From a virus: a DNA stretch of 40,790 bases. Positions 3,530-29,278 of the stretch are shown here, one piece after another (positions within the stretch are counted from its first letter, which is position 1; each line of letters begins with the position of its first letter). The DNA is taken from IMG/VR virus record IMGVR_UViG_3300027734_000132, positions 1 to 40,790 of that record; one strand, 5' to 3'. A program made the position numbers and the translations under genes. The notes below the pieces were generated by a model. The model worked only from the letters and a program-made list of their open reading frames with translations. It had not been told where the DNA came from and did not search any database.

Positions 3530-4179
3530 TGGATATCCAAAACCTTCTAAAGGTGGCACTTTATGAGCAAGACGGACAGCGTGATCGTTCGCAACAAACT
3601 CAGTTAGGTGCATCATCAGTTGGCGGATGTAGGCGACAGGCTTGGAGCATCCTTAATGGAGTACCAAAAACAAATGACAACACAGAACACCTTGCCGCAA
3701 TTATTGGCACATCGCTACACGCGACTATTGCTGGTGCAATGGAAGCCGCAGATCCATTTGGTGATGATTTTCTAATTGAGCAAGCGTTTGAAACGGAACA
3801 TCTAAAAGGTCATTGCGATTTATTTATTAAATCAACTGGTACGGTAATTGACTGGAAAACAACCACCAAGAAAAAACTGGCTGAATTCCCAAATGACCAA
3901 CAGCGTATGCAAGTACAACTGTATGGATACCTTATTGAGGAAGCAGGACATATGGTTGCCGAAGTTGCGTTGGTTGCAATTCCGCGTGACGGACAATCAA
4001 AGGATATTAAAGTCCACAGCGAACCTTACAATCGCGAAATGGCGCAACAAGGTTTGGATTGGATTACGGATATTAAATCTAGGACAGAACCACCTGCGCC
4101 CGAAAAGTCAGCATTCTTTTGTAAAAACTATTGTGCTTGGTATGACCAGTCAGGCGAGGTCGGATGTACAGGAAAGTAG
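3529..4179 (+). CDS. Cas4/RecB-like PD-(D/E)XK exonuclease
   Basis: 216 residues from the ATG that overlaps the previous stop. The nuclease core is visible: H64, D97 (GHCDLFI), D108-x-K110 (VIDWKTTTK) and the QxxxY motif (QMQ/QLYGYL, 127-134). Cys at 34, 198, 202 and 213 match the four ligands of the Fe-S cluster of Cas4/AddB-type nucleases. Such enzymes resect DNA ends, here probably to load the annealing protein, SSB and RusA. A role in spacer acquisition is not indicated because there is no CRISPR array or Cas1. An in-frame ATG at 3490 lies inside the preceding gene and is less likely. Confidence 0.82.
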   Translation: MDIQNLLKVALYEQDGQRDRSQQTQLGASSVGGCRRQAWSILNGVPKTNDNTEHLAAIIGTSLHATIAGAMEAADPFGDDFLIEQAFETEHLKGHCDLFIKSTGTVIDWKTTTKKKLAEFPNDQQRMQVQLYGYLIEEAGHMVAEVALVAIPRDGQSKDIKVHSEPYNREMAQQGLDWITDIKSRTEPPAPEKSAFFCKNYCAWYDQSGEVGCTGK

Positions 4180-4532
4180 TTGATAGAAATAAAATTGAAT
4201 GGGAACGCGCATCGTGCCAAGGGTTAGAGACCGATCTATTCTTTACCCCACGAACCGAGTTACTTATTGAAGGACTCAACTACAACCACTTACGCAGAAT
4301 GTGCTTTGACTGTCCAATACAAAAGGAATGTCTACAAGCAGCAACAGCCTTTGAGCCTTATGGATTTTGGGGTGGTTTATCCGAAGATGAACGCCGCCAT
4401 ATTTATGCAGGCAAACTGGACACACGGGTTATGGGATGGCTTAGGCGAGACTTAAAAGCACTTAACATAGGTTTATCAACATTGGTGCAGACCGTGTTGT
4501 CCGTTGAGAGAGATTTTACTTTTAACAAATGA
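4164..4532 (+). CDS. whiB: WhiB-family iron-sulfur transcription regulator
   Basis: 122 residues with the WhiB signature: C18, then C47-x2-C50-x5-C56, which bind a 4Fe-4S cluster, followed by FWGGLSEDER (the G[VI]WGG turn) and a basic region. WhiB proteins bind the host primary sigma factor and alter promoter choice; phage copies can block host regulators. WhiB is confined to actinobacteria and their phages, so this is the best host clue. The reading frame overlaps the nuclease by 16 bases; no later start keeps C18. It is a candidate controller of the TTTACA/TAGAT promoters, by inference only. Confidence 0.92.
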   Translation: MYRKVVDRNKIEWERASCQGLETDLFFTPRTELLIEGLNYNHLRRMCFDCPIQKECLQAATAFEPYGFWGGLSEDERRHIYAGKLDTRVMGWLRRDLKALNIGLSTLVQTVLSVERDFTFNK

Positions 4533-8739: not shown

Positions 8740-9159
8740 TTGGCAAAATGCCTTTCAGTAGCCGCACTTGCGGTAGGTATTTTGTTGGCAACACCAGCCG
8801 AGGCTCACAGTCCTAAAATGCCACAAATGGTAGACGTTCGCACAGCGCAAGCGGCAAAAGTTAGCGCACAAAAGCAGTTACATGTTTTTGGTTGGGGTCG
8901 TAGCCAATGGGGATGCCTTAAGGAATTATGGACTAATGAGTCAAACTGGCGACCAGATGCCAGAAATAAAACAGCCGTAACGGTTGTAAGAAATGGTAAA
9001 AAAGTCCAAGTCCACGCAGGAGGTATCCCACAGATACTAGGGCTAGACCCCAAGACACCCGTGCATAAGCAGGTTCGGTTAGGTTTAACCTACATAGACT
9101 CCAGATATGGAAGCCCGTGCAATGCTTTAAGATTTTGGGATACCAACTTTTGGTATTAG
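8740..9159 (+). CDS. Secreted lytic transglycosylase-like protein
   Basis: 139 residues from TTG 8740, with GAGGG about 10 bases upstream. A signal peptide is evident: MAKCLSVAALAVGILLATPAEA, with cleavage expected after AEA. The mature part has QWGCLKELWTNESNW with Glu67 in the catalytic position, AGGIPQIL, then QVRLGLTYIDSRYGSPC and a final FW..NFWY, the pattern of the small SLT-like domain common in actinobacterial secreted proteins. It should cut peptidoglycan glycan strands outside the membrane. It lies in the early operon, away from the M15 endolysin at 38386, which is odd for a lysis gene. Confidence 0.75.
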   Translation: MAKCLSVAALAVGILLATPAEAHSPKMPQMVDVRTAQAAKVSAQKQLHVFGWGRSQWGCLKELWTNESNWRPDARNKTAVTVVRNGKKVQVHAGGIPQILGLDPKTPVHKQVRLGLTYIDSRYGSPCNALRFWDTNFWY

Positions 9160-9221: not shown

Positions 9222-9262
9222 AAAGAGAACCCACAGCGATTTGCCTCCCTGTGGGTTCTCTT
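9222..9262 (+). terminator. Strong bidirectional terminator
   Basis: A perfect 14-bp stem: AAGAGAACCCACAG (9223-9236) with CTGTGGGTTCTCTT (9249-9262), loop of 12 bases. A-rich bases on the left give a T run for the minus strand, so it can stop transcription in both directions. It separates the P2 operon from the gene at 9285. Confidence 0.85.
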
Positions 9263-9272
9263 ATGTCTAGGG

Positions 9273-9278
9273 TAGAAT
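9273..9278 (+). promoter_or_regulatory. -10 box of a leaderless promoter
   Basis: TAGAAT lies only six bases before the ATG at 9285, directly after the terminator. This puts the transcription start on or next to the ATG, so the mRNA would be leaderless, common in actinobacteria. No ribosome site is present before this ATG, in contrast to the AGGAGG sites of the early genes. A -35 box is not clear. Confidence 0.6.
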
Positions 9279-9284
9279 TAAACA

Positions 9285-9848
9285 ATGACCACCATCGCCG
9301 CTATAGAAGGAAATGGGTGGGCTGTAATTGGGTCAGACTCGCAATCATCAGGCGAAGATGGATTTTCTATAGACATACCTGCGGGCAAGATATTTAAGAA
9401 TGGTGAAGCAATAATTGCTGGCGCTGGTGCAGTACGCGGAATCAACTTATTGGAACACGCTTGGGTATGTCCGCCAATAAAAATAGACAACCTAGATAAA
9501 TATGTAACAAGTATTCTAATTCCATCCATACGCAAGTGCTTTGATGCGGCAGATTATGAGTACAAAAAAGACGAAGGTTCAGTACTGCAAGACAATATCT
9601 TTATCATTTGTGTCCGAGGTTGCATCTATCGTATTGACGAAGATTATGGGTGGGAAAGAACTAACGACAACATTTATGTGGCAGGTTCAGGCGAACGATT
9701 TGCTCTTGGCGCACTTGAAGCACTTAAGGCTGGACAATCCGATACTGTAGCCAAAGCCAAAAACTGTATACGCATAGCAATTAAGGCGGCATCCAAGTAT
9801 GATGTCTTTACGGGAGGCGAGATCAAATTTATGGTATCCAATGGATAA
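9285..9848 (+). CDS. HslV/proteasome beta-like Ntn-hydrolase protease subunit
   Basis: 187 residues. MTTIAAIEGNGWAVIGSDSQ aligns with the HslV N-terminus: Thr2 would be the nucleophile after Met removal, Asp18 and Lys35 fit the catalytic Asp and Lys, AGAGA (45-49) the oxyanion glycines, and GSGERFALGALEAL (134-147) the GSG motif with its following helix. The length is close to HslV (about 175). These proteins assemble into barrel proteases that need an ATPase unfoldase, and no HslU, Mpa or ClpX-like gene is visible in this genome. Either a host ATPase is used or it acts alone. It may trim capsid or host regulatory proteins; that is speculation. First gene after a strong terminator, with a leaderless start. 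Confidence 0.8.
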   Translation: MTTIAAIEGNGWAVIGSDSQSSGEDGFSIDIPAGKIFKNGEAIIAGAGAVRGINLLEHAWVCPPIKIDNLDKYVTSILIPSIRKCFDAADYEYKKDEGSVLQDNIFIICVRGCIYRIDEDYGWERTNDNIYVAGSGERFALGALEALKAGQSDTVAKAKNCIRIAIKAASKYDVFTGGEIKFMVSNG

Positions 9849-10194
9849 AAAAATAGCGGAAGTTGTACTCAGCCGCGCTGGAAATTACTGCGAAGCGTGC
9901 GGCAAAGCAGGTCAAAACTTCGCACTTCACCACCGCAGGTTAAAGTCGCAAGGTGGTAAGGATGAAGTCTGCAACCTTATAGCCGTGCATCACGAGTGCC
10001 ACAATATGGGAACCAATGCAATACATATGAACCCTGCGAAATCTATAGAGATGGGTTGGATAGTGCCAAGTTGGGCGCAACCCGCCGAGTATCCCTTACA
10101 CCTTCCAGACGGAAGTAAGGTATTATTGGACAACGAAGGCTCCTATCAACTAACAGAAGGTGAAAATTATGGCTCAGATAGAAATTATTGGTAA
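9841..10194 (+). CDS. HNH endonuclease
   Basis: 117 residues from ATG 9841, overlapping the protease gene by 8 bases. The HNH core is complete: CEAC (two Cys), FALHHRRLKSQGG, CNLIAVHHECHN, with paired zinc Cys and catalytic His. A ~55-residue tail follows (PSWAQPAEYPLHLPDGSKVL). HNH proteins next to terminase can assist packaging; here SSB and HTH genes intervene, so recombination or homing are other options. An in-frame ATG at 9799 lies inside the upstream gene. Confidence 0.85.
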   Translation: MDKKIAEVVLSRAGNYCEACGKAGQNFALHHRRLKSQGGKDEVCNLIAVHHECHNMGTNAIHMNPAKSIEMGWIVPSWAQPAEYPLHLPDGSKVLLDNEGSYQLTEGENYGSDRNYW

Positions 10195-15078: not shown

Positions 15079-15439
15079 TCCGCTAAACCTTAGATTACGC
15101 CAGTATCAGGAGTGGGCTATTGTTTTTTCATACTGTGAACAAGATGCTAATGGAAACTTTGATTTAGATTTACCAATAAGCCTCGCGGGATATACTCCTA
15201 TAGTACAATTCCGTACGAGTGCAATGGCGCGTACAGCGGTGTTAGAAGGCACAGTAGCAAACGGAAGCATTGTATTTAATGCAACCACTTCCCCACAGGT
15301 ACAAATCAGTCTCGCAATTAACTGCGCGCCTGGAAAGTATGAGTGGGATTTACGCCTTATCCCAACCAACCAAGCCGAATCCATTTTCTTAGGTCGCGGC
15401 ACAGTACAAGTAGATGCAGAGGTCTCGCGCAATGCCTAA
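15047..15439 (+). CDS. BppU-like beta-sandwich protein
   Basis: 130 residues, overlapping terL by 32 bases. The pattern LRQYQEWAIVFSYCEQDANG, DLPISLAGYTPIVQFRTSA, then APGKYEWDLRLIPTNQ and GRGTVQVDAEVSRNA matches the Ig-like N-terminal domain seen in phage baseplate and fibre-attachment proteins (BppU type). It overlaps the collagen-like fibre gene by 8 bases, so it may be the base that anchors this fibre on the virion. Confidence 0.6.
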   Translation: MTAQSFNQTPDPLNLRLRQYQEWAIVFSYCEQDANGNFDLDLPISLAGYTPIVQFRTSAMARTAVLEGTVANGSIVFNATTSPQVQISLAINCAPGKYEWDLRLIPTNQAESIFLGRGTVQVDAEVSRNA

Positions 15440-18400
15440 TTACGATATTGTAGATGGTTCAGTACCAGTTGTAGTTGTAACAGGTGCGGGTAATCGCGGT
15501 ATTCAAGGTACTACTGGTATTCAAGGCAGTATAGGTATCCAAGGTTTACGCGGAGCGCAAGGCATTCAAGGTAATACTGGTGCAAGCGGTTCATCATCAT
15601 CTTACTTTGACTATGCAATCACTACGGCTAACCTAACTGGCGACCCTACAAGTGGAAAAGTCGGGTATAACACAGCCACACAAACCGCTGCCACACAATT
15701 ACGCATTAGCGATACTACAACCAATGGAACCAACATTGATGTATTGCTTACTTCAATAGCAACAAATACTTTTATTACTTTACAGGATAGTACCAGCCAA
15801 CTTAATACTCAAAAGTGGATAGTAAGCGGAAACAAAGTTGACAATACAACCTACTGGAGCATTCCAGTCACGCTTGTATCAAGTGCAGGTACGGGCACAA
15901 CTGGTTTTGCAAACAACGCGCCAATTATTGTCATCCTTCAGGCTACTGGCGTGCAGGGTACAACAGGCGCGCAAGGTGCGGTTGGCGTACAAGGAACAAC
16001 GGGCTTAACAGGCTTACAAGGCGTGCAGGGTCTTGTTGGTGCGCAAGGACAAACAGGAATTCAAGGCGCTTTAGGTATTCAGGGAACACAAGGCACGACT
16101 GGCGTTCAAGGCATTATTGGTTTACAAGGCGTTCAAGGAAATACGGGAAGCCAAGGACTAACTGGTATTCAAGGTTCAGTAGGTCTGCAAGGAACACAAG
16201 GTGTTCAGGGACAAACAGGTGCGCAGGGTGCGCAAGGAATTATTGGCGTTCAAGGAATTAACGGCACACAGGGAACACAAGGATTGACTGGTGCACAGGG
16301 CGCACAAGGAACAATCGGTGTCCAAGGCATTACAGGTATGCAGGGTACGCAAGGTACAACTGGCGATACAGGTGCGCAGGGAACAATTGGAAGTCAAGGA
16401 ACATTTGGTAATACGGGCGCGCAAGGTACTGTCGGACAAACTGGTTCGCAAGGTACTGTCGGAACACAAGGTGCAATTGGTTCACAAGGTTTAGAAGGTC
16501 CGCAAGGAGTAACTGGTTCCCAAGGAACTCAGGGAACAACTGGTCTGCAAGGCGTTCAGGGTGTTGTTGGCTCCCAGGGTACTTCAGGACTCAACGGCTC
16601 TCAAGGTACGACAGGTACGCAGGGCGCAATTGGTACTCAAGGTGCTGTCGGTGTTCAGGGCGCGCAAGGACTAGGAGGTGTGCAAGGTATTACAGGCTCA
16701 ACAGGTAATACTGGCTCACAGGGAACAACGGGTACTCAGGGACTACTTGGTTTGCAAGGTACGCAAGGAATTGTTGGCGCGCAAGGCGTAGGAGGAATCC
16801 AAGGCGCACAAGGTCTTGAAGGACATCAAGGAACAATTGGTGCTCAGGGAGTCACAGGAACGCAAGGCGCAATTGGAATCCAAGGCGTTGTTGGCGCGCA
16901 AGGTACTCAGGGAGTAATTGGTAGCCAAGGCGTACAGGGCATTACTGGTATTCAGGGCAATACTGGAATTCAAGGTACGCAAGGTGTACAAGGTCAATTT
17001 GGTGCGCAAGGTGTTCAGGGACTTACTGGTGCTGGTGGTTCACTTGCATACTACGGTTCATTCTACGATAACACAGTACAAACACCTGCCGCTATTAACA
17101 CCGCTTACGCAATTAACATTGGCTACACCTCAGATAGTTTTGGTGTAAACCGAAGCAGTTCAAGTCATATTGACTTTACTGCAAGTGGCACATACAGCAT
17201 TACTTTCTCATTGCAAGTTAAATCAACTTCTGCTTCAACCAAAAACTTTCAAGCGTGGCTTGGCGTAAATGGTTCCTATGTGCAAGAGTCAAACAGCGAC
17301 ATAACATTAACGCAGACTAATGAGATGGATGTCCTGACCGTCAATTTTGTCTTGCCTCTTACCGCTGGCGATTACATTCAACTATTCTACGCCTCAGACA
17401 GCACGGCAATTCAGATCGCAACACCAGCGGCTCTTGATGCTGCGCCAAATGTGCCTTCTGTAATTGTTACAGCAACTCAAGTTGCTTATTCAATTCAAGG
17501 CGCTATTGGTGCCACAGGCTCACAAGGAACTTCAGGCACAAATGGTGCTAACGGAATTCAAGGTACTGTCGGTCTACAAGGTATTCAGGGTAGCAACGGA
17601 ACGCAAGGCATTGTTGGTAACACGGGTTCACAAGGTCTAATTGGCGCTCAGGGTTCTATTGGTGCTCAGGGTACAACTGGCACACAAGGCGCAGTCGGCA
17701 TCCAAGGTAATGACGGAACACAAGGCACCGTTGGCTTGCAAGGCACTCAGGGAATTACTGGTGCGCAAGGTGCGCAAGGCACTACAGGCATTCAAGGTAT
17801 TCAAGGACTTGGATTTATTAACTATGGTGCGTGGGATGTAGACCTCGCGTATGCGGTTAATAGCGTTGTCACATATAACGGACAATCTTATGCCGCACTT
17901 CGCTTTGTACCTGTTGCTACTGCGATTACAGATACTTTCTATTGGTCTGTATTAGCCGCAAAGGGCGCACAAGGAACAACAGGAAATACTGGTGCGCAAG
18001 GCACAATTGGTTTGCAAGGTATTGCTGGTTCCCAAGGATTAAACGGAACACAAGGCACATCTGGTACTAACGGAACCAATGGCGCACAGGGAACAACTGG
18101 TGCTAACGGAACGCAAGGCACCAACGGAACGCAAGGAACAAACGGCGTTAATGGTGCTCAAGGTACTACTGGTTCTCAGGGTATCAATGGCGTGCAAGGT
18201 GCTACTGGCGCAAATGGTGCAGATGGCGCACAAGGAACCACGGGCGCGCAAGGCACTATTGGAATTCAAGGACATACGGGAGCGCAAGGCGTTACTGGTT
18301 CTCAAGGTGTAATTGGAACTCAAGGTACATTAGGCGCTACTGGTTCCCAAGGTGTTCAAGGTCTAAATGGCATTCAAGGAAATACTGGCAGCCAAGGTGT

Positions 18401-19844
18401 TGCTGGTATCCAAGGTCAAACTGGACTACAAGGCACAACTGGAAATCAAGGCACAATTGGTGCTACAGGTTCTCAGGGCATTACAGGAACTCAGGGCGCA
18501 ACAGGTACACAAGGTACTTTTGGCGCACAAGGTACAACGGGTCTTACTGGTACTCAGGGCTTAACTGGTACACAAGGAATAACTGGTACAGGAACTCAAG
18601 GTACGCAAGGAACCACAGGTGCATCAGGTCCTACAACGGTTTCTGTTTACTATCCTGGCGGGGTTGCAGGCGCTCAAACTGCGGCAATTAGTGCAACCGC
18701 TGGTGCCTATAACTACACATCTAACGGTACTGGGATTATTGCAATTCTAGGTGGAACAACAATCACACCTTCAGACGGTACTTCAGCAGGAACCGCGACG
18801 CTTGCTACAAATGCAACATCTATCTCTATGATTACAGCAAAAGCACTTGAAGCGGGTAGCACACTAGAGTCTGCTGCATTTTTTATGCCTTCATATGGCG
18901 TGACTGTTGCTTATTCGTCAGGTTTAGGTAAGTACATTGCTATCCCGCCATCTGGTTCATACTACTACTTGTCATCAGATGCGGTAACTTGGACTCAATA
19001 CAACAACCCTGGTCCTTTTAGTAGCAGCCCCGTAAATGCAGTTGGTGGTCCACAAGGATTTGTTGTGATTTCTAATGGCGTTGCAGTTAATTCAACTGAT
19101 GGAATTAACTGGAATTTCAATTTTCTTTCTGCGCAGAATGAACTTTATCCTTCTCTGGCATACGCGAATGGAAGATATGTTTATGTTACCCCAAATGAAG
19201 TTTATGCATCTACTGACAATGTAACTTATACTTCAAGCAATAACGGCGGCGCGTGGTCAAGTAGTAGATTACAAGGCATTACTTATACAAATGGTATGTG
19301 GATAATTACCGACAGACCTTCATTTGGAACAATCACATTCTGGACCAACTCTAACGCAAACCCAACCAGTGGCACTTGGACACAGTATGTTTCTAGCGGG
19401 CTATTTCCTGCGTTTTATTCTCCTGGTTCGTTTTTCTTTACACATCTTGATGGTTCATATGTTTACATTGCTAGCGATGGTACTGTTTTTAGGTGCGCAA
19501 CCTTAAATGGTACTTGGATAAATACAAGCAATGTAGGTCTTTCTGGAGACTTTGGCTTAGCCACTCAGGTTGGTAGCACTATTGCAATCGCAGGCGGCGG
19601 TGATGCTGGCACAAGCGGTGCGTATAAAACATCCACAGACGGTGGAGTTACTTGGAACTCATACACTGGGCCTCAAAGCCCCATTTTTGGTAAACCAGTT
19701 CTCACTAATAACGGAAGCGGTAGCGTACTGTCGGGTTACTTTGACGCAAGCAGCACATATCCTCGCACAAGTAAACTTACTCCAGTTACACCAGTAACTG
19801 GTCCTGGGTCCATCGTTCTAACAAAAGCAACGGTAACTTCGTAA
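15432..19844 (+). CDS. Giant collagen-like fibre protein
   Basis: 1470 residues from ATG 15432. Four G-x-y collagen-like blocks lie at roughly 19-53, 172-535, 690-793 and 844-1068, with units such as GTQGTTGAQG. Between them are a small beta domain (57-170), a C1q/TNF-like globular domain (537-688: AYYGSFYDN, FTASGTYSITFSLQ, LTAGDYIQLFY) and a short CBM-like domain (795-842: WDVDLAYAVNSVVTYNGQSY). The C-terminal ~400 residues look like a beta-propeller (repeated SxDxxxWT and YGNGRYV-like units), probably the receptor-binding part. The blocks are nearly proline-free and about one residue in five is Gln, unlike animal collagen. It lies between terminase and portal, so a head or neck fibre is as likely as a tail fibre. 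Confidence 0.88.
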   Translation: MPNYDIVDGSVPVVVVTGAGNRGIQGTTGIQGSIGIQGLRGAQGIQGNTGASGSSSSYFDYAITTANLTGDPTSGKVGYNTATQTAATQLRISDTTTNGTNIDVLLTSIATNTFITLQDSTSQLNTQKWIVSGNKVDNTTYWSIPVTLVSSAGTGTTGFANNAPIIVILQATGVQGTTGAQGAVGVQGTTGLTGLQGVQGLVGAQGQTGIQGALGIQGTQGTTGVQGIIGLQGVQGNTGSQGLTGIQGSVGLQGTQGVQGQTGAQGAQGIIGVQGINGTQGTQGLTGAQGAQGTIGVQGITGMQGTQGTTGDTGAQGTIGSQGTFGNTGAQGTVGQTGSQGTVGTQGAIGSQGLEGPQGVTGSQGTQGTTGLQGVQGVVGSQGTSGLNGSQGTTGTQGAIGTQGAVGVQGAQGLGGVQGITGSTGNTGSQGTTGTQGLLGLQGTQGIVGAQGVGGIQGAQGLEGHQGTIGAQGVTGTQGAIGIQGVVGAQGTQGVIGSQGVQGITGIQGNTGIQGTQGVQGQFGAQGVQGLTGAGGSLAYYGSFYDNTVQTPAAINTAYAINIGYTSDSFGVNRSSSSHIDFTASGTYSITFSLQVKSTSASTKNFQAWLGVNGSYVQESNSDITLTQTNEMDVLTVNFVLPLTAGDYIQLFYASDSTAIQIATPAALDAAPNVPSVIVTATQVAYSIQGAIGATGSQGTSGTNGANGIQGTVGLQGIQGSNGTQGIVGNTGSQGLIGAQGSIGAQGTTGTQGAVGIQGNDGTQGTVGLQGTQGITGAQGAQGTTGIQGIQGLGFINYGAWDVDLAYAVNSVVTYNGQSYAALRFVPVATAITDTFYWSVLAAKGAQGTTGNTGAQGTIGLQGIAGSQGLNGTQGTSGTNGTNGAQGTTGANGTQGTNGTQGTNGVNGAQGTTGSQGINGVQGATGANGADGAQGTTGAQGTIGIQGHTGAQGVTGSQGVIGTQGTLGATGSQGVQGLNGIQGNTGSQGVAGIQGQTGLQGTTGNQGTIGATGSQGITGTQGATGTQGTFGAQGTTGLTGTQGLTGTQGITGTGTQGTQGTTGASGPTTVSVYYPGGVAGAQTAAISATAGAYNYTSNGTGIIAILGGTTITPSDGTSAGTATLATNATSISMITAKALEAGSTLESAAFFMPSYGVTVAYSSGLGKYIAIPPSGSYYYLSSDAVTWTQYNNPGPFSSSPVNAVGGPQGFVVISNGVAVNSTDGINWNFNFLSAQNELYPSLAYANGRYVYVTPNEVYASTDNVTYTSSNNGGAWSSSRLQGITYTNGMWIITDRPSFGTITFWTNSNANPTSGTWTQYVSSGLFPAFYSPGSFFFTHLDGSYVYIASDGTVFRCATLNGTWINTSNVGLSGDFGLATQVGSTIAIAGGGDAGTSGAYKTSTDGGVTWNSYTGPQSPIFGKPVLTNNGSGSVLSGYFDASSTYPRTSKLTPVTPVTGPGSIVLTKATVTS

Positions 19845-19849
19845 TCGGC

Positions 19850-20512
19850 TTAACGCACCCACAGCATTCCAACATCGGCTGTGGGGCGTAAGCCTGACTT
19901 TTTCCAATAACCGCTTTCCCATAAGACTTTATTCTTATTGTGCCAAGCGTTTAGGTCAAAAGTTTTAAGGTCAAACCAAACATCAGGTTGTTGGCAATGA
20001 TGTTCAATATATTGGCACCCTACTTGACTATAACCGCCGTGTAATAAATACTCAAGTTGTAGTTGATGGTCAGCCATAGTTTCTAAAGTCCACTCAAAGG
20101 CAATCGTTCCCATCTTGGAACTAAGTCCTTTGAACACGGACCATTCTGCACCTTCAACATCAATCTTGATAAGGTCAGGCACTCCGTACTTTAGGGCTAA
20201 TGTGTCAAGAGTAATTGTTGTTGCGGCTATGGTTCTGTAAGGTTTGCCCGCATAAGGCATAGACTCATTCGTAAGCCAGTCAAGGTTAATGGTAGATAAA
20301 CCATCTTCCTCGGCTTCGTAAAACTCTACGCGTTCGTAATCGCTACCACTTACGGCATATTTAAGTGGGGTTACGTGTGGGTTATAGATAAAGTTGCTGA
20401 CAAGTTCACCAAATACTTTTGGCGCTGCTTCAATAGCAACAACATCATAACCTTTATCTAGTGCGGCAAAAGTAAAGTCGCCACGATTTGCACCAATATC
20501 AAAGCAGAGCAT
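19850..20512 (-). CDS. FkbM-family methyltransferase
   Basis: 220 residues. The SAM-binding loop FDIGANRGDFT (4-14), VAIEAAPKVFGELVSN, and IKIDVEGAEWSVFKG are hallmarks of FkbM methyltransferases, which O-methylate sugars or related groups. Last gene of a minus-strand trio with TPR and propeller genes, overlapping its neighbour by 14 bases. A role in capping or modifying a glycan on the virion, or on the host surface, is inferred. It converges on the fibre gene with only 5 bases between the stops. Confidence 0.88.
   Translation of the reverse strand: MLCFDIGANRGDFTFAALDKGYDVVAIEAAPKVFGELVSNFIYNPHVTPLKYAVSGSDYERVEFYEAEEDGLSTINLDWLTNESMPYAGKPYRTIAATTITLDTLALKYGVPDLIKIDVEGAEWSVFKGLSSKMGTIAFEWTLETMADHQLQLEYLLHGGYSQVGCQYIEHHCQQPDVWFDLKTFDLNAWHNKNKVLWESGYWKKSGLRPTADVGMLWVR
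19858..19885. terminator. Hairpin at the convergent gene ends
   Basis: CCCACAGC (19858-19865) pairs perfectly with GCTGTGGG (19878-19885) around a 12-base loop. It lies inside the 3' end of the methyltransferase gene, just past the fibre stop, and may stop the rightward transcript. There is no strong T run. Confidence 0.4.
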
Positions 20513-21056
20513 TTAGTTTCTCCAAGTTATAGGCAACGGCATCCTTGTACATAGGGTTGATGTCCATACTAGATAGAATCTTAAGCGTATTAAGTGCCTC
20601 GTCCTTACGACCTATCCACCAAGCGGCTATTGCCTTTTGGAAGTACAGCGTATAAGTCCCAGCGTAACCTATATCGGCTGGCAGTTGTTCTTCTCCATAA
20701 CAGCCAAGTCCAACGTGCGCATATGTATAAACTTCTTGCCATTGACCCATAGACTCATAGAACTTAGACAACAACAGCCAAGCCTCTGGGCGATCAGGCT
20801 GTACCGTAATTGCCTGCAATATGCAGTTGCTTACGCTGTGTTCTCTACCAGTCTGGTCGTTAAAGCACTGAGATATCCTGAGCAAGGATGTGTAGGTGAG
20901 CAAAGAACTTTTGTTGCTATATTCAGCACAGCGTAGGTAGAACGACACGGCACTAGCACTCTGGTTTAATGCCAGATATGCCTCGGCAGCATCAAAGTTT
21001 AGTTGTGGGTTGAACGGGTCTTTGGATAGGTCAATTACCAAGTCCTCAATGCTCAT
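20499..21056 (-). CDS. TPR-repeat protein
   Basis: 185 residues. Repeated paired helices fit tetratricopeptide repeats: NFDAAEAYLALNQSASAVSF, then PDRPEAWLLLSKFYESMGQW with the classic W/L/G/Y spacing, and a third unit near KAIAAWWIGRKDEALNTLKI. TPR proteins hold protein partners. It lies between the propeller and the methyltransferase with overlaps on both sides, so it likely scaffolds these two enzymes. Confidence 0.75.
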   Translation of the reverse strand: MSIEDLVIDLSKDPFNPQLNFDAAEAYLALNQSASAVSFYLRCAEYSNKSSLLTYTSLLRISQCFNDQTGREHSVSNCILQAITVQPDRPEAWLLLSKFYESMGQWQEVYTYAHVGLGCYGEEQLPADIGYAGTYTLYFQKAIAAWWIGRKDEALNTLKILSSMDINPMYKDAVAYNLEKLNALL

Positions 21057-22044
21057 ACTTTAATCCTTCCAAAATAAGGTCATCAACAACAACTTTAGGC
21101 ACGCTCAGTACAAATGCCGCGTTGTCCTGAAAGCCAAAACTGACCAACAAGTTGCCATTGTATTCAGCCGCACCTACACAGAATTCCACACGGGCGTCTA
21201 GGAAACTAAACGGCTCAGACATACCTGCAAAGTTAAATTGTTGATCCCATATAACTACGCGATGGCGGTAGATGGCATCCTTTTGTTGCAGGTAATTCTT
21301 GAACAAATCTACTTCGTGGGTAATGCAGATGTACATATTGCCCCACCTAATTACCTGCGAGCCGCCTCGTTGATCCTTGGTAGGTACTGGTGTGTGGCGC
21401 AACATTATTTGCTCAGTATCTTGTCCAAATGGACTGGAATAAACAACCTCGGTAGGCATAGTCCACTTTACGAAGGTATAAGGTCTATCTACTACAGGCA
21501 TCCAGTTCTTTTCGCAGTATGAGTCATCCGCATCAGGAGCCGCTATGCGCTTGCGATGAATTTCCTTCGCTGTCCAATTAGCCTTATCAAGGTCAATCTG
21601 CGTGTATTCCATACGACCAATGCCAGTTGTGGTGGTGTCTCTGCGGACTCCAATAAGGTAGTACTCATTGTTCCATTGGACAACACGAGCATCCTCAAGC
21701 CCCACGAATTCCCAAATGGGTTCGTGTAGCGACTGCATTTCAACCTTGGTAAAGTCGGCCATATTCAAGTCGCTATCAAGGCGGCACAAATAGTTTTCGG
21801 TTACCAAGCGTTGATCTTTTTCAGGGTGCAGGTAGGTCAAAGGACCATAACGACTGGGAAAACTTTGCTGGTTTTCGGCGTGTACTAAGGTATAGTTAAC
21901 GTGACGAAGATTGACCAGAATATCATTATCGTGGTCTACATAAATGGAAGGGTTCATCAAACCTGTTCCAGATGTAAGACCGTTGGGTATAACTAACGGG
22001 GCTAATTTGCCGCCATTAGAGACTGCCTTCTCTACTAAGTTCAT
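21046..22044 (-). CDS. Five-bladed beta-propeller, GH130/GH43-like
   Basis: 332 residues from the ATG at 22044; a longer in-frame start at 22167 would overlap the portal gene. Blade motifs are seen: LMNPSIYVDHDNDILVNLRH, EFVGLEDARVVQWNNEYYLI, NWMPVVDRPYTFVKW, and DARVEFCVGAAEYNGNLLVS. The GLEDARV and CEKNWMP segments resemble GH130-type mannosyl phosphorylases and related uncharacterised propellers that occur in glycan loci. The substrate cannot be assigned. TATTGT six bases before the ATG suggests a leaderless promoter. Confidence 0.62.
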   Translation of the reverse strand: MNLVEKAVSNGGKLAPLVIPNGLTSGTGLMNPSIYVDHDNDILVNLRHVNYTLVHAENQQSFPSRYGPLTYLHPEKDQRLVTENYLCRLDSDLNMADFTKVEMQSLHEPIWEFVGLEDARVVQWNNEYYLIGVRRDTTTTGIGRMEYTQIDLDKANWTAKEIHRKRIAAPDADDSYCEKNWMPVVDRPYTFVKWTMPTEVVYSSPFGQDTEQIMLRHTPVPTKDQRGGSQVIRWGNMYICITHEVDLFKNYLQQKDAIYRHRVVIWDQQFNFAGMSEPFSFLDARVEFCVGAAEYNGNLLVSFGFQDNAAFVLSVPKVVVDDLILEGLKYEH

Positions 22045-22071
22045 AGGAATACAATACCAATAGGAGTGACA
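22045..22071. promoter_or_regulatory. 27-bp divergent gap with overlapping -10 boxes
   Basis: On the plus strand, TACAAT (22050-22055) precedes TAGGAG and the portal ATG. On the minus strand, TATTGT (22051-22056) stands six bases before the propeller ATG, the same spacing as the leaderless promoter at 9273. No clear -35 boxes. Both directions would compete for the same DNA. Confidence 0.35.
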
Positions 22072-23958
22072 ATGGGTCTGTTTGACAGATTTGCAAAACG
22101 CGTTGCAGATGAAATCGTTAAGGCACCAAATCTTCCTGCTGGTGCTGGAACAATGACTATGCAACAAATGCAGAGTGCTGCTGGTATTGCCCAGACTCAG
22201 TACGGCTCAAATGTAAGTACAGCCTTACCTCGTAACCCGCTACTTGCAAGTGTTCCTTTTGCTCCTGGTATGCCTATCTTTCCTGGAGCCATTAACCCGC
22301 TTCGTACAGATACAGGTCGCCCAGACCCGCGCCGTTATGAATTCCAAGTTGCTCAAAACATCAACGTATCTGATAACAGACTTGTACCTTTTAAGACTTT
22401 GCGTGCAGTATCAGATCAAATTGATATCGTGCGCCGTTGTATTGAAGTAAGAAAGTCTAAAATTACTTCCCTAAAGTGGGACATTGTGCTTAGTGAAGCC
22501 GCAACAGAGCGCATCATCTCGGAACAAGGTGGTAATCACCTTACTGCGCTTGCTCAATCACGCGAAGAGTTTTCAGCAGAGATTGGTCGTTTGCGTAAGT
22601 TTTGGGAAACGCCAGACCCTCAAAATGGTTTGTCTTTTGTGGACTGGTTGTCAATGGCGATGGAAGAAATAGATGTTCTTGATGCTTGGGCTATATGGCC
22701 ACAGGTAACTGTAGGCGGTGAAATTAGAGGGTTCCAAATCCTTGACGGTTCAACTATTAAACCCCTACTTGATGATCGCGGTATGCGCCCAGAGCCAAGT
22801 TCTGGTCCAGCATTCCAACAAATTCTTTTTGGCTTCCCACGCTCAGAGTTTAATGCTGGAATAGATGATGAGGTTGCGGATGGCGAATTTACCTCGGATG
22901 ACCTTGCTTATTTTGTACGCAATCGTCGTTCCAATAGTGTGTATGGACTATCTCCTACAGAGCGTTGCTTACCACTTGCTGATATTTACTTGCGTCGCCA
23001 ACAATGGATTCGTTCAGAGTTCACAGATGGCACAATGCCTAAGTCATACTTAGAGTTGCCTGAATCAACCACTATGACGCCTGACCAAATCAGAGCATAT
23101 GAAGATATCTATAATGACGATCTATCAGGACAAACAGCACAGCGTAATCGTATGCGCTTGTTAGTTCCTGGTGGCAAATTACATTTTGAAGAAGGTTACT
23201 CAGATAAGTTCTCGGATGCGATGGATAACTACTTAGTCTCATCTATTACTGGACACTTTGGCGTACTACCATCTGAAATTGGGTTCAATGGCGGTGGTGG
23301 CGGGTTAGGTGCATCAGGTCTACAGCAAGGTGAGGCACAATCAGGCGAAGCAATCGGCATCTTGCCTACCGCTAACTGGGTTTCGCAAATGATTTCGGCA
23401 CTTTCATATCGTTTTCTTGGGATGCCACGCGAACTAGAGTTCCGCCTCGCACCTAGCGAGCGCACTAATACTGCTGAGACAGCATCGCGAGATGATATTC
23501 GCAAGAAGAATGGTTCAATAACCCTTAATGAGAACCGTGCGGAACTTGGTTTACCTCTTATTGAAACACCTGAGGCTGATATGCCAATGCTTGTCGCTGG
23601 TCCAAGTATTTATTTCTTCGGTCCTGATGGTCTTATCCCAGCAGTACCTCCAGTAGACCCACTTGCGGGATTTGGAACGGAAGAAGAACCTGCCGCTGAC
23701 GAAGTACCTGTCGCTGACGAAAAACCTGTGGAGGAAGTACCTGTAGAGGCAAATCCTGAAGATAAGCCTGAAGCCAAACCTGTTGATGCTGAGGAAGAAG
23801 TAAAAAAATTCCTTCGCTGGTTACGCAAAGGAACACCTTCGCGAGCATTTGAATTTCAAGTACTAGATGAAACATATGCCGAAATCTTAAATAAGTTTGT
23901 TGATACTAAGGATGTAGATAGCGCTCGTTGGTACGCGGAACATTATCTAGGTATCTAA
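22072..23958 (+). CDS. Portal protein
   Basis: 628 residues from ATG 22072 with TAGGAG five bases upstream (GTG 22066 is an alternative). It carries the actinophage portal pattern: RRYEFQVAQNINVSDNRLVP, DQIDIVRRCIEVRKSKITSL, the central VRNRRSNSVYGLSPTERCLP, and TGHFGVLPSEIGFNGGGG. A C-terminal Pro/Glu/Val-rich, acidic linker (about 535-590) separates the core from a short helical end. Twelve copies form the ring for DNA entry. Confidence 0.9.
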   Translation: MGLFDRFAKRVADEIVKAPNLPAGAGTMTMQQMQSAAGIAQTQYGSNVSTALPRNPLLASVPFAPGMPIFPGAINPLRTDTGRPDPRRYEFQVAQNINVSDNRLVPFKTLRAVSDQIDIVRRCIEVRKSKITSLKWDIVLSEAATERIISEQGGNHLTALAQSREEFSAEIGRLRKFWETPDPQNGLSFVDWLSMAMEEIDVLDAWAIWPQVTVGGEIRGFQILDGSTIKPLLDDRGMRPEPSSGPAFQQILFGFPRSEFNAGIDDEVADGEFTSDDLAYFVRNRRSNSVYGLSPTERCLPLADIYLRRQQWIRSEFTDGTMPKSYLELPESTTMTPDQIRAYEDIYNDDLSGQTAQRNRMRLLVPGGKLHFEEGYSDKFSDAMDNYLVSSITGHFGVLPSEIGFNGGGGGLGASGLQQGEAQSGEAIGILPTANWVSQMISALSYRFLGMPRELEFRLAPSERTNTAETASRDDIRKKNGSITLNENRAELGLPLIETPEADMPMLVAGPSIYFFGPDGLIPAVPPVDPLAGFGTEEEPAADEVPVADEKPVEEVPVEANPEDKPEAKPVDAEEEVKKFLRWLRKGTPSRAFEFQVLDETYAEILNKFVDTKDVDSARWYAEHYLGI

Positions 23959-25086: not shown

Positions 25087-27366
25087 ATGACTATGAACTA
25101 CACAACAAGTTATGCACAAATTGTCAAGTACGATAAGAATGATGACGGCACTCTTATGGTATTTGGTAAGGCTACCGATGACACATTGGACTTGGATGCA
25201 CAAATTTGTGATGCCGCTTGGCTTGATGAGGCTATGCCAGCGTGGTTCAAGTCAGGCGGAAACATTCGCGAGATGCACGGTCCATCAGCCGCTGGAATTG
25301 CCAAAGAATATGAGTCAAAGAAGGATGGTCATTACATTGGCGTTCACGTTGTAGACCCAATCGCTGCCAAGAAGGTAGAGACTGGTGTATACCAAGGATT
25401 TAGTATTGGCATTAAGTCCCCACGCGTTGTACGCGACAATAAGGCAGCAAATGGTCGCATCATTGACGGGCAGATTATTGAAGTCAGTTTAGTAGATCGT
25501 CCTGCGAATCCGTCAGCCAAGTTAATTTTGGCTAAGTCGGTTGAAGGCGAGTCAAGTTTGGTGCAGGTTGAAGAATTGCACGAATACAAAGCGCCACTAC
25601 CTAGCGATATTGCAAAGCACGGCGATCACGACCAGTCAGACCACTCACCTAGCGGCGGTGGTGGCGGTTCAGATAAGCCAAGTGGCGAGGATAAACCTTC
25701 TGGCGGCGACTCAAAAACTGATTCAAGAATTGAAGGCGACAGAACCGCCAACAATGTAAGTACCTCTATTTCGGACATACGCGACGAACTGGGCGATATA
25801 GAAGATGAATTAAGAGACTCAGGTGATAACGAAAGCGCGGATGCAATAGGGGAGGCGCTAGATACATTAAATGATGCTGGCGGTTACTTGGATGGAATTG
25901 AAAATCAATCCGAGCGCGAATTTACATCCAACATGGAAGATACACTTAGAGATTTAGAAGTGTCCTTTGATCGCATGAGCGAGGTAAGTCACAGCGATGC
26001 CGAACGCGTGCAAAATGATATACAGGATCTTATAGATGAAGTTGAAGGATTTCTAGACGGATACTATGGCAGAGAAGAAAAAACAGCCAAGGGTATAAAG
26101 GTTCGTAAGTCAGCAATAACAAAGCACGGTGACCACGACCAGTCAGATCATAGTCCAAGTGGCGGAGGTGGGTCGGATAAACCTTCTGGCGAAGATAAAC
26201 CTTCTAACGAGGACAAGCCCGCTGATGTGCCAAGCGAGTCAGGTTTTAACGAAACAGATCAACAGTCAATCAACGATACAATTTCAGGCAACGAAGATAT
26301 TTCAATGGGCATAGATAATTTGTATGACGAAGATCACGATGATTATGTGGAAGATTTGTCTGAGCAAGATGAAGAAATGACCGCAGATGCGCAAGATTCC
26401 ATTAAGGAAGCCAATGAACAACTGGAACGCGCTTATTTTGCCAAAGACAACGATGCAAGAGCGGCAGCACTTGACTCAGCATTGGTTCGTATGGATGAAG
26501 CAGCAAGTTCATTAAGAAATGCTGACAGTAGAATTCTTGCTAGTTTTGCTGATGATTTGGATTCCAGAATGGAAGAAATTGAAGCAGTGTATGACGCTAT
26601 ATTGGAAGGCGATGATAGTCCAATAAAATCAGCAACAACAACTAAGGAGCCAAGAATGGCAAGACAACGCAGGGCAGCAAAGTCTGCCATTAACAAAGAA
26701 GAAGGAATGCCTATGAATGGTGAATCCAAGTCAATTCCTTCTCGTGAAGAAATGATTGAACGATATGCAGCGGCTCGCAAAGCCGTAGATGATATTGCAG
26801 CAGAATGTAAGTCCCACGGGTATGACGATGTGGAAAAGGCTTATGGAGAGACCGCGGAAGAAGAAACCGCAGAAGGTCCAGCCGTTGCTGCTGAAACCGC
26901 CGAAGAAGAAGTACGCGAAGCGGAAGAACAAAAGCCAGCAGATGAGGCAAAAGCCGTTGATGCTGACGAAGAAGATGAAGATATGGATAAAGAAAAGAAA
27001 AAAGTTTCCGAAGATGATGAGTCTGAGGATGATGAGGTCGTAAAGAGCCTCATTGAGAAAGCCGTTAAGAGTGCGATGGACTCGGTTAAAGTAGAGATTG
27101 ATACCTTGCTTGCTGAAAAGAAGTCAGCGGTAGAGAAGTCAGTAAAACTTGAATCTGACCTAGCAACGGCACTATCAAAATCAGTTGCAGGTGGCCCTAA
27201 GCGCACAGCAACAAAAATGTCAGATGCAGCCCAAAATGACCTGCTTGTAAAGGCAGCGCAATACAAGGCTAAGGCTGACGCAACAACCGACCCAGTTTTG
27301 GCTAAGGGATACCGCGAACTTGCAAGTGATTTTATTGCAAAAGCAAGCCCTAAGTCACAAAACTAA
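25087..27366 (+). CDS. Capsid maturation protease fused to scaffold-like region (XkdF-like)
   Basis: 759 residues. The N-terminal ~150 residues are the protease: MVFGKATDDTLDLDAQICDA, NIREMHG (H64), VYQGFSIGIK (S106 candidate), and EVSLVDRPANP (132-142). The rest is acidic, low-complexity and helical, like a fused scaffold that is digested during maturation. A KHGDHDQSDHSPSGGGG linker occurs twice, at about 177 and 346, each followed by SDKPSGEDKPS and an acidic helical unit. The last ~150 residues form a long coiled coil. It is much longer than typical proteases because of these duplicated inserts. Confidence 0.85.
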   Translation: MTMNYTTSYAQIVKYDKNDDGTLMVFGKATDDTLDLDAQICDAAWLDEAMPAWFKSGGNIREMHGPSAAGIAKEYESKKDGHYIGVHVVDPIAAKKVETGVYQGFSIGIKSPRVVRDNKAANGRIIDGQIIEVSLVDRPANPSAKLILAKSVEGESSLVQVEELHEYKAPLPSDIAKHGDHDQSDHSPSGGGGGSDKPSGEDKPSGGDSKTDSRIEGDRTANNVSTSISDIRDELGDIEDELRDSGDNESADAIGEALDTLNDAGGYLDGIENQSEREFTSNMEDTLRDLEVSFDRMSEVSHSDAERVQNDIQDLIDEVEGFLDGYYGREEKTAKGIKVRKSAITKHGDHDQSDHSPSGGGGSDKPSGEDKPSNEDKPADVPSESGFNETDQQSINDTISGNEDISMGIDNLYDEDHDDYVEDLSEQDEEMTADAQDSIKEANEQLERAYFAKDNDARAAALDSALVRMDEAASSLRNADSRILASFADDLDSRMEEIEAVYDAILEGDDSPIKSATTTKEPRMARQRRAAKSAINKEEGMPMNGESKSIPSREEMIERYAAARKAVDDIAAECKSHGYDDVEKAYGETAEEETAEGPAVAAETAEEEVREAEEQKPADEAKAVDADEEDEDMDKEKKKVSEDDESEDDEVVKSLIEKAVKSAMDSVKVEIDTLLAEKKSAVEKSVKLESDLATALSKSVAGGPKRTATKMSDAAQNDLLVKAAQYKAKADATTDPVLAKGYRELASDFIAKASPKSQN

Positions 27367-29203: not shown

Positions 29204-29274
29204 TTCCCTCTCGTCCAACGGCAGGACAACAGCCTTTGAAGTTGTGAATCATAGTTCGAATCTATGGGGGGAAG
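29204..29274 (+). tRNA. tRNA-Gln (anticodon UUG)
   Basis: A full cloverleaf can be drawn. Acceptor TTCCCTC (29204-29210) pairs with GGGGGAA (29267-29273), one T-G wobble. D stem GTCC/GGAC with a GG-containing loop; anticodon stem ACAGC/GTTGT with one G-T pair; loop CTTTGAA, giving anticodon TTG at 29236-29238. Variable GAAT; T arm CATAG-TTCGAAT-CTATG; discriminator G29274. CCA is not encoded. It reads CAA, and CAG by wobble. It lies between the capsid gene and a zinc-ribbon gene and would be co-transcribed with late genes. Confidence 0.88.
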
Positions 29275-29278
29275 CGCT

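Follow-up and report, generated by a model that had tools for sequence, protein, structure and literature searches.

A 2021 study listed phage proteins homologous to proteasome subunits, for which neither a function nor a partner was known, and both their lack of AAA+ partners and their spread by phages have been published (Fuchs et al. 2021, PMC8665760). No unfoldase is known for BPH, and the same study found no AAA+ partner for the related homologues; nor did it find AAH in any phage specific to actinobacteria (Fuchs, Alva and Lupas 2021, PMC8665760). HslV genes without HslU had also been noted in a paper on a Salmonella jumbo phage (PMC7823757).

Here we analysed a 40,790-nt stretch of viral DNA (IMG/VR record IMGVR_UViG_3300027734_000132, positions 1 to 40,790; hereafter the window), in which the following gene was studied.

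9285..9848, + strand: proteasome-like (Ntn-hydrolase) peptidase subunit gene, called from motifs, Pfam, PHROG, structure model and dN/dS
Residues of the encoded protein: Thr2, predicted nucleophile after removal of Met, and Gly48, predicted oxyanion hole (counterparts in described enzymes: Thr1, Asp17, Lys33 and Gly47)

Like the group I homologues AAH, CPH and PPH, which are compact, found in bacteria and phages, free of a propeptide and without a known AAA+ partner, the window protein is small and phage-borne. Its closest structural match is BPH, an active Ntn-hydrolase without a known unfoldase, although the two proteins are just 17–19% identical, and BPH has been solved as a double heptameric ring whereas the window protein was modelled as a single subunit.

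Fold, active site and family of the window protein

The gene is a 187-aa open reading frame running from ATG to TAA, and its protein begins MTTIAAIEGNGWAVIGSDSQSS. The product matches the Pfam Proteasome model (PF00227) at 24.1 bits against a cut-off of 22.4, and PHROG 1040, 'peptidase HslV family', with an E-value of 5.6e-27. An AlphaFold2 monomer model (mean pLDDT 91.1, pTM 0.87) has the proteasome beta fold, in line with the Ntn-hydrolase proposed in the initial annotation. Foldseek searches with this model returned BPH (5ovs) as the best match (E 1.7e-11), followed by HslV (1g3i, E 7.7e-10) and by 20S beta subunits; more than 1,000 PDB entries matched at E < 0.001, and those among the matches listed were proteasome-like throughout. 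With a second structure aligner the similarity extended over almost the full chain (Z ~20), and Thr2 coincided with the first residue of mature beta subunits. A profile built from 34 phage relatives also retrieved HslV, 20S beta subunits and BPH from the PDB.

All 34 aligned relatives carry T2, D18, K35, G48, S135 and D173 without exception, and the AGAGA and GSG motifs occupy residues 45–49 and 134–136 of the window protein. Thr2, Asp18, Lys35 and both motifs had been read from the sequence in the initial annotation and all were found in place; the Thr/Asp/Lys set, rather than being lost in homologues, is retained in all 34 of those aligned. Comparison of the gene with three close orthologues gave dN/dS values of 0.04–0.06, indicating that purifying selection on the gene is strong. 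Of 78 related loci, 77 have an open reading frame, and the remaining one is cut by the end of its contig. Given the invariant residues, the predicted fold and the low dN/dS, we regard the first observation as confirmed: as judged from sequence and model, the window protein is a proteasome-like Ntn-hydrolase. The conserved catalytic residues and the predicted beta fold also back the earlier expectation that it is likely to be an active enzyme. It appears extremely improbable that the gene has lost its catalytic function or is decaying, since neither the invariant catalytic residues nor the low dN/dS nor the intact frames would be expected of one.

The initial annotation had called the product HslV/proteasome-like. 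Its score was 23.2 bits against both NCBIfam HslV models (TIGR03692, cut-off 157.75; NF003964, cut-off 137) and 31.2 bits against the archaeal 20S beta model TIGR03634 (cut-off 224), and TIGR03690 gave no match. Falling so far short of these cut-offs, the window protein is neither HslV nor a 20S beta subunit. The proteasome-like part of the label stands, by fold and by Pfam, but HslV is only a loose name. The fold and the Thr/Asp/Lys site are common to the window protein and HslV, but the score lies far below the HslV cut-off and no HslU was found in the window or in the hosts checked. The 20S beta subunits (PrcB and archaeal beta) are alike in fold, and Asp173 and the [ST]GG motif of the window protein resemble the beta Asp166/Ser169 region; the differences are that the window encodes no alpha subunit and that the window protein has no propeptide. 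Identity with PPH was ruled out, since the PPH proteins of Fuchs et al. 2021 have ~140 residues and no helix H2 (PMC8665760), whereas the window protein has 187 residues and keeps that helix, with model helices at residues 50–58 and 70–88.

Those two helices also bear on a narrower function, in which the enzyme would destroy or modify one host protein (of defence, transcription or division) or act as a connectase-like transferase or ligase. One member of the proteasome-like family, connectase, is a specific protein ligase (PMC8665760), but it is without H1 and H2, whereas the window model has helices there. No defence gene or target is tied to the peptidase by gene context. Phage proteases are often narrow in their targets, and we keep such a function as a very doubtful alternative.

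The window protein belongs to a phage clade that we place in group I of its family. Scanning IMG/VR with motifs yielded 257 stretches encoding relatives (more than 250 related contigs), of which the best 80 of 257 were retained, corresponding to 79 loci. Copies were found by tblastn in Actinomycetia phage DSL-LC01 (39%), in the Arthrobacter phages Hum25 and Pitbull, in Microbacterium phage Pumpernickel, in Geobacillus virus E3 and in two Ca. Planktophila phages. The annotated phage HslV copies (DSL-LC01, E3, Hum25 and Pumpernickel) and PHROG 1040 belong to the same family by profile and tblastn, and BFVD models of phage proteins annotated as HslV reach a TM score of 0.94 to the window protein; however, the latter is just 30–39% identical to the best of the annotated copies, and its clade has motifs of its own, AAI[EQ]G[DN]GW and a YDxFTGG-type motif. 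When TerL, MCP and DNA were used to look for the nearest phage, only distant relatives emerged.

A related protein with an MTC N-terminus and a GFTxSFRMGQ motif is encoded in 25 of 296 Actinomycetes genomes, and in the tree these proteins cluster with several phage copies from proteobacterial and Firmicutes phages. They fit the published description of AAH, and we refer to them as AAH-type on the basis of that description rather than of its authors' alignment. The window clade (support 100/99) is separate from the AAH-type group (97/99), although profile comparison of the two shows clear homology (hhalign 99.8%); the window clade retains Asp173-x-x-[TS]-G-G, whereas the AAH-type proteins have no equivalent of that Asp. 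The deep order of the tree, with its many long branches and unsettled bootstrap, was disregarded. When 84,980 species genomes were scanned with the two window-clade motifs, none of the 59 pattern matches encoded a relative; within the limits of these motifs, no close copy was seen in bacterial chromosomes.

Upstream hairpin, promoter and gene order

The immediate surroundings of the peptidase gene comprise the following features.

8740..9159, + strand: transglycosylase-like gene upstream of the hairpin, a conserved neighbour in 21 loci
9223..9262, + strand: terminator-like hairpin, stem 9223–9236/9249–9262, -25.7 kcal/mol, z -6.6, loop ATTTGCCTC
9273..9278, + strand: putative -10 box TAGAAT, 6 nt before the ATG, with TANNNT in orthologues
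9841..10194, + strand: HNH endonuclease gene (PHROG 740 HNH, E 8.6e-25), a neighbour in 15 loci

The strong terminator proposed upstream of the gene corresponds to the hairpin at 9223–9262. Its stem sequence varies among orthologues with pairing kept in each, and the loop ATTTGCCTC is conserved in 13 of 14 relatives. The U-tract is weak in the window, and the tails are T-rich in most orthologues. A generic terminator scan of the window did not list this hairpin, whose loop exceeds the length that the scan allows. As an observation in its own right, the loop ATTTGCCTC is complementary to the phage's frequent Shine-Dalgarno sequence GGAGGCAAA, and all six + strand copies of GGAGGCAAA (sites near 543, 658, 916, 1186 and 5662 among them) have a possible start codon close behind. 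Pairing of a 3'-end RNA with ribosome-binding sites would be one explanation, chance another.

All 14 distinct close orthologues carry a TANNNT box 5–6 nt ahead of the ATG and no Shine-Dalgarno sequence. This combination fits a leaderless transcript, as had been suggested for the window, whose start we infer to be at or next to the A of the ATG. A leaderless promoter behind a terminator-like hairpin also supports the proposed separate control of the gene. Both features hold for the window's own clade, not for the whole family; among more distant orthologues, those located within operons often carry a Shine-Dalgarno sequence, GGAGG or GGAGA. Downstream, the HNH gene starts (ATG at 9841) within the last 8 nt of the peptidase gene, so that the two genes are probably co-transcribed.

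Across relatives the peptidase gene occurs in three different surroundings, with no constant partner gene. The portal gene is immediately upstream in 26 IMG/VR loci and also in E7, a cultivated phage of Ca. Planktophila; in such loci the peptidase gene is followed by two late proteins, one small and one very large, and then by proteins that read as scaffold- or capsid-like. The E7 protein in this portal slot belongs to another deep lineage of the tree than the window protein. Other relatives have a metallophosphoesterase gene behind the peptidase gene. The position directly behind portal and before a large late operon raises the possibility of a role in virion assembly, the product being a late protease acting on scaffold or other structural proteins, or a component of the virion. 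This is unlikely for the window, where, as in its nearest relatives, a long distance separates the gene from the head genes and its neighbour is an HNH endonuclease gene; the window, moreover, has its own candidate head maturation protease at 25087–27366 (weak PHROG matches). For the same two reasons, a head-maturation role for the window gene was ranked low.

Some other features of the window were recorded among its structural genes. A collagen-like tail fibre of 1476 aa with long G-x-Q-G repeats is encoded at 15414–19844. Three minus-strand genes at 19850–22167 lie among plus-strand structural genes; their products are methyltransferase-like, TPR-like with a weak glycosyltransferase match, and a 373-aa protein, and together they are possibly a surface-modification cassette. 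A lone tRNA-Gln(ttg) gene is found at 29204–29275 between structural genes.

Unfoldases in phages and hosts

No AAA or AAA_2 domain was detected in the 40.8-kb window, a record that may be a fragment of the phage genome, or in three close relatives, in agreement with the initial reading that no unfoldase is encoded. The initial annotation had proposed a look for homologues beside ATPase genes in related phages; in the related loci the peptidase gene has no constant neighbour, and no neighbour is an unfoldase gene. Weak AAA matches in E7-like and 100-kb phages were considered as unfoldases and rejected: they are far from the peptidase gene and mostly in frames of 230–270 aa, and one of them reads like a RecA/DnaB-type ATPase.

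The host side was approached through one further gene of the window (GC content 44.6%).

4164-4532: gene for a WhiB-like transcription factor

WhiB genes mark actinophages (PMC10202952, PMC6802176), and on this gene the host of the window phage is placed in Actinomycetota. A tetranucleotide host signal was discarded, as for E7, taken as positive control, the true host was not at the top of the ranking and E. coli reached an equally high score. The tblastn match OX376640 is Planktophila phage LanE43-AprE7 (E7); it and one other phage were the first to be cultivated on Ca. Nanopelagicales (PMC10202952). Apart from the peptidase gene, E7 and the window have few genes in common, so the host of E7 is not simply transferable to the window.

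The genome of the E7 host, LanE-43, was located with the 16S pattern of an acI probe; together with eight others brought in by this pattern it made a set of nine Nanopelagicales genomes. PF00227 was found in none of the nine, LanE-43 included. The Pfam Proteasome protein was absent from 79 of 81 sampled genomes of LanE-43's order, the other two having a PrcB/PrcA-like pair, which suggests, as far as these sequences go, that the proteasome was lost in the lineage of LanE-43. Neither Mpa/ARC nor HslU scored above cut-off in any of seven genomes (LanE-43 and six other Nanopelagicales). For E7, the known chamber partners are thus absent from phage and host. The same absence would apply to the window only if its host belongs to LanE-43's order; actinobacteria outside Nanopelagicales often have proteasomes and Mpa. 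The suggestion that the peptidase borrows Mpa/ARC from its host finds no support in LanE-43 and the other six Nanopelagicales genomes. Moreover, Mpa/ARC docks on alpha rings, and since the phage encodes none, such borrowing is disfavoured.

The seven genomes do encode AAA+ proteins of ClpX size (431–446 aa), ClpC/ClpB size (837–860 aa) and FtsH size (683–717 aa). The peptidase could be a proteolytic chamber for one of these ClpX-, ClpC/ClpB- or FtsH-like proteins, redirecting host unfolding power to substrates chosen by the phage. That such proteins match AAA+ models in Nanopelagicales, and that HslU, the known partner of HslV, is itself a Clp-type ATPase, speak for this arrangement. It is nonetheless fairly unlikely: no adaptor or docking element is recognisable, ClpX and ClpC dock through IGF/LGF loops on ClpP, which has a different fold, and Mpa/ARC and HslU are absent.

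A possible role in infection

The explanation that we prefer, and judge about equally likely to be right or wrong, is that the window protein is an ATPase-independent, self-compartmentalised threonine peptidase. Considering that Thr2 is a good penultimate residue and that there is no propeptide, host methionine aminopeptidase would remove Met1, and the exposed Thr would become the nucleophile. Subunits would stack into a closed single or double ring, as in BPH or HslV, forming a chamber that would cut peptides and unfolded polypeptides with no need for ATP. During infection, misfolded or truncated proteins would be cleared and amino acids recycled. In the window clade the peptidase would be produced from its own leaderless transcript, and in other phages together with structural genes. 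For this explanation stand the fold, the active site, the selection on the gene, the lack of AAA+ domains in the window and three close relatives, and an E7 host without proteasome subunit, HslU or Mpa/ARC; against it stand the ClpX-, ClpC/ClpB- and FtsH-like proteins of the host, which could serve as unfoldases. It is distinctly unlikely, though conceivable, that these phages bring a proteasome-like, ATPase-free particle into proteasome-less hosts, and that in E7-like phages it belongs to the head-assembly programme, being produced alongside the portal protein and perhaps packaged, serving morphogenesis or early takeover.

To the extent of the searches made, the new elements are a freshwater-actinophage clade of the family, its occurrence in the portal slot, the leaderless promoter of the window clade, and a host without proteasome, HslU or Mpa/ARC. 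Such genes are common in phages of abundant freshwater actinobacteria. Since LanE-43 and E7 combine a phage homologue with a host that lacks proteasome, HslU and Mpa/ARC, this pair makes AAA+-independence testable with no host background.
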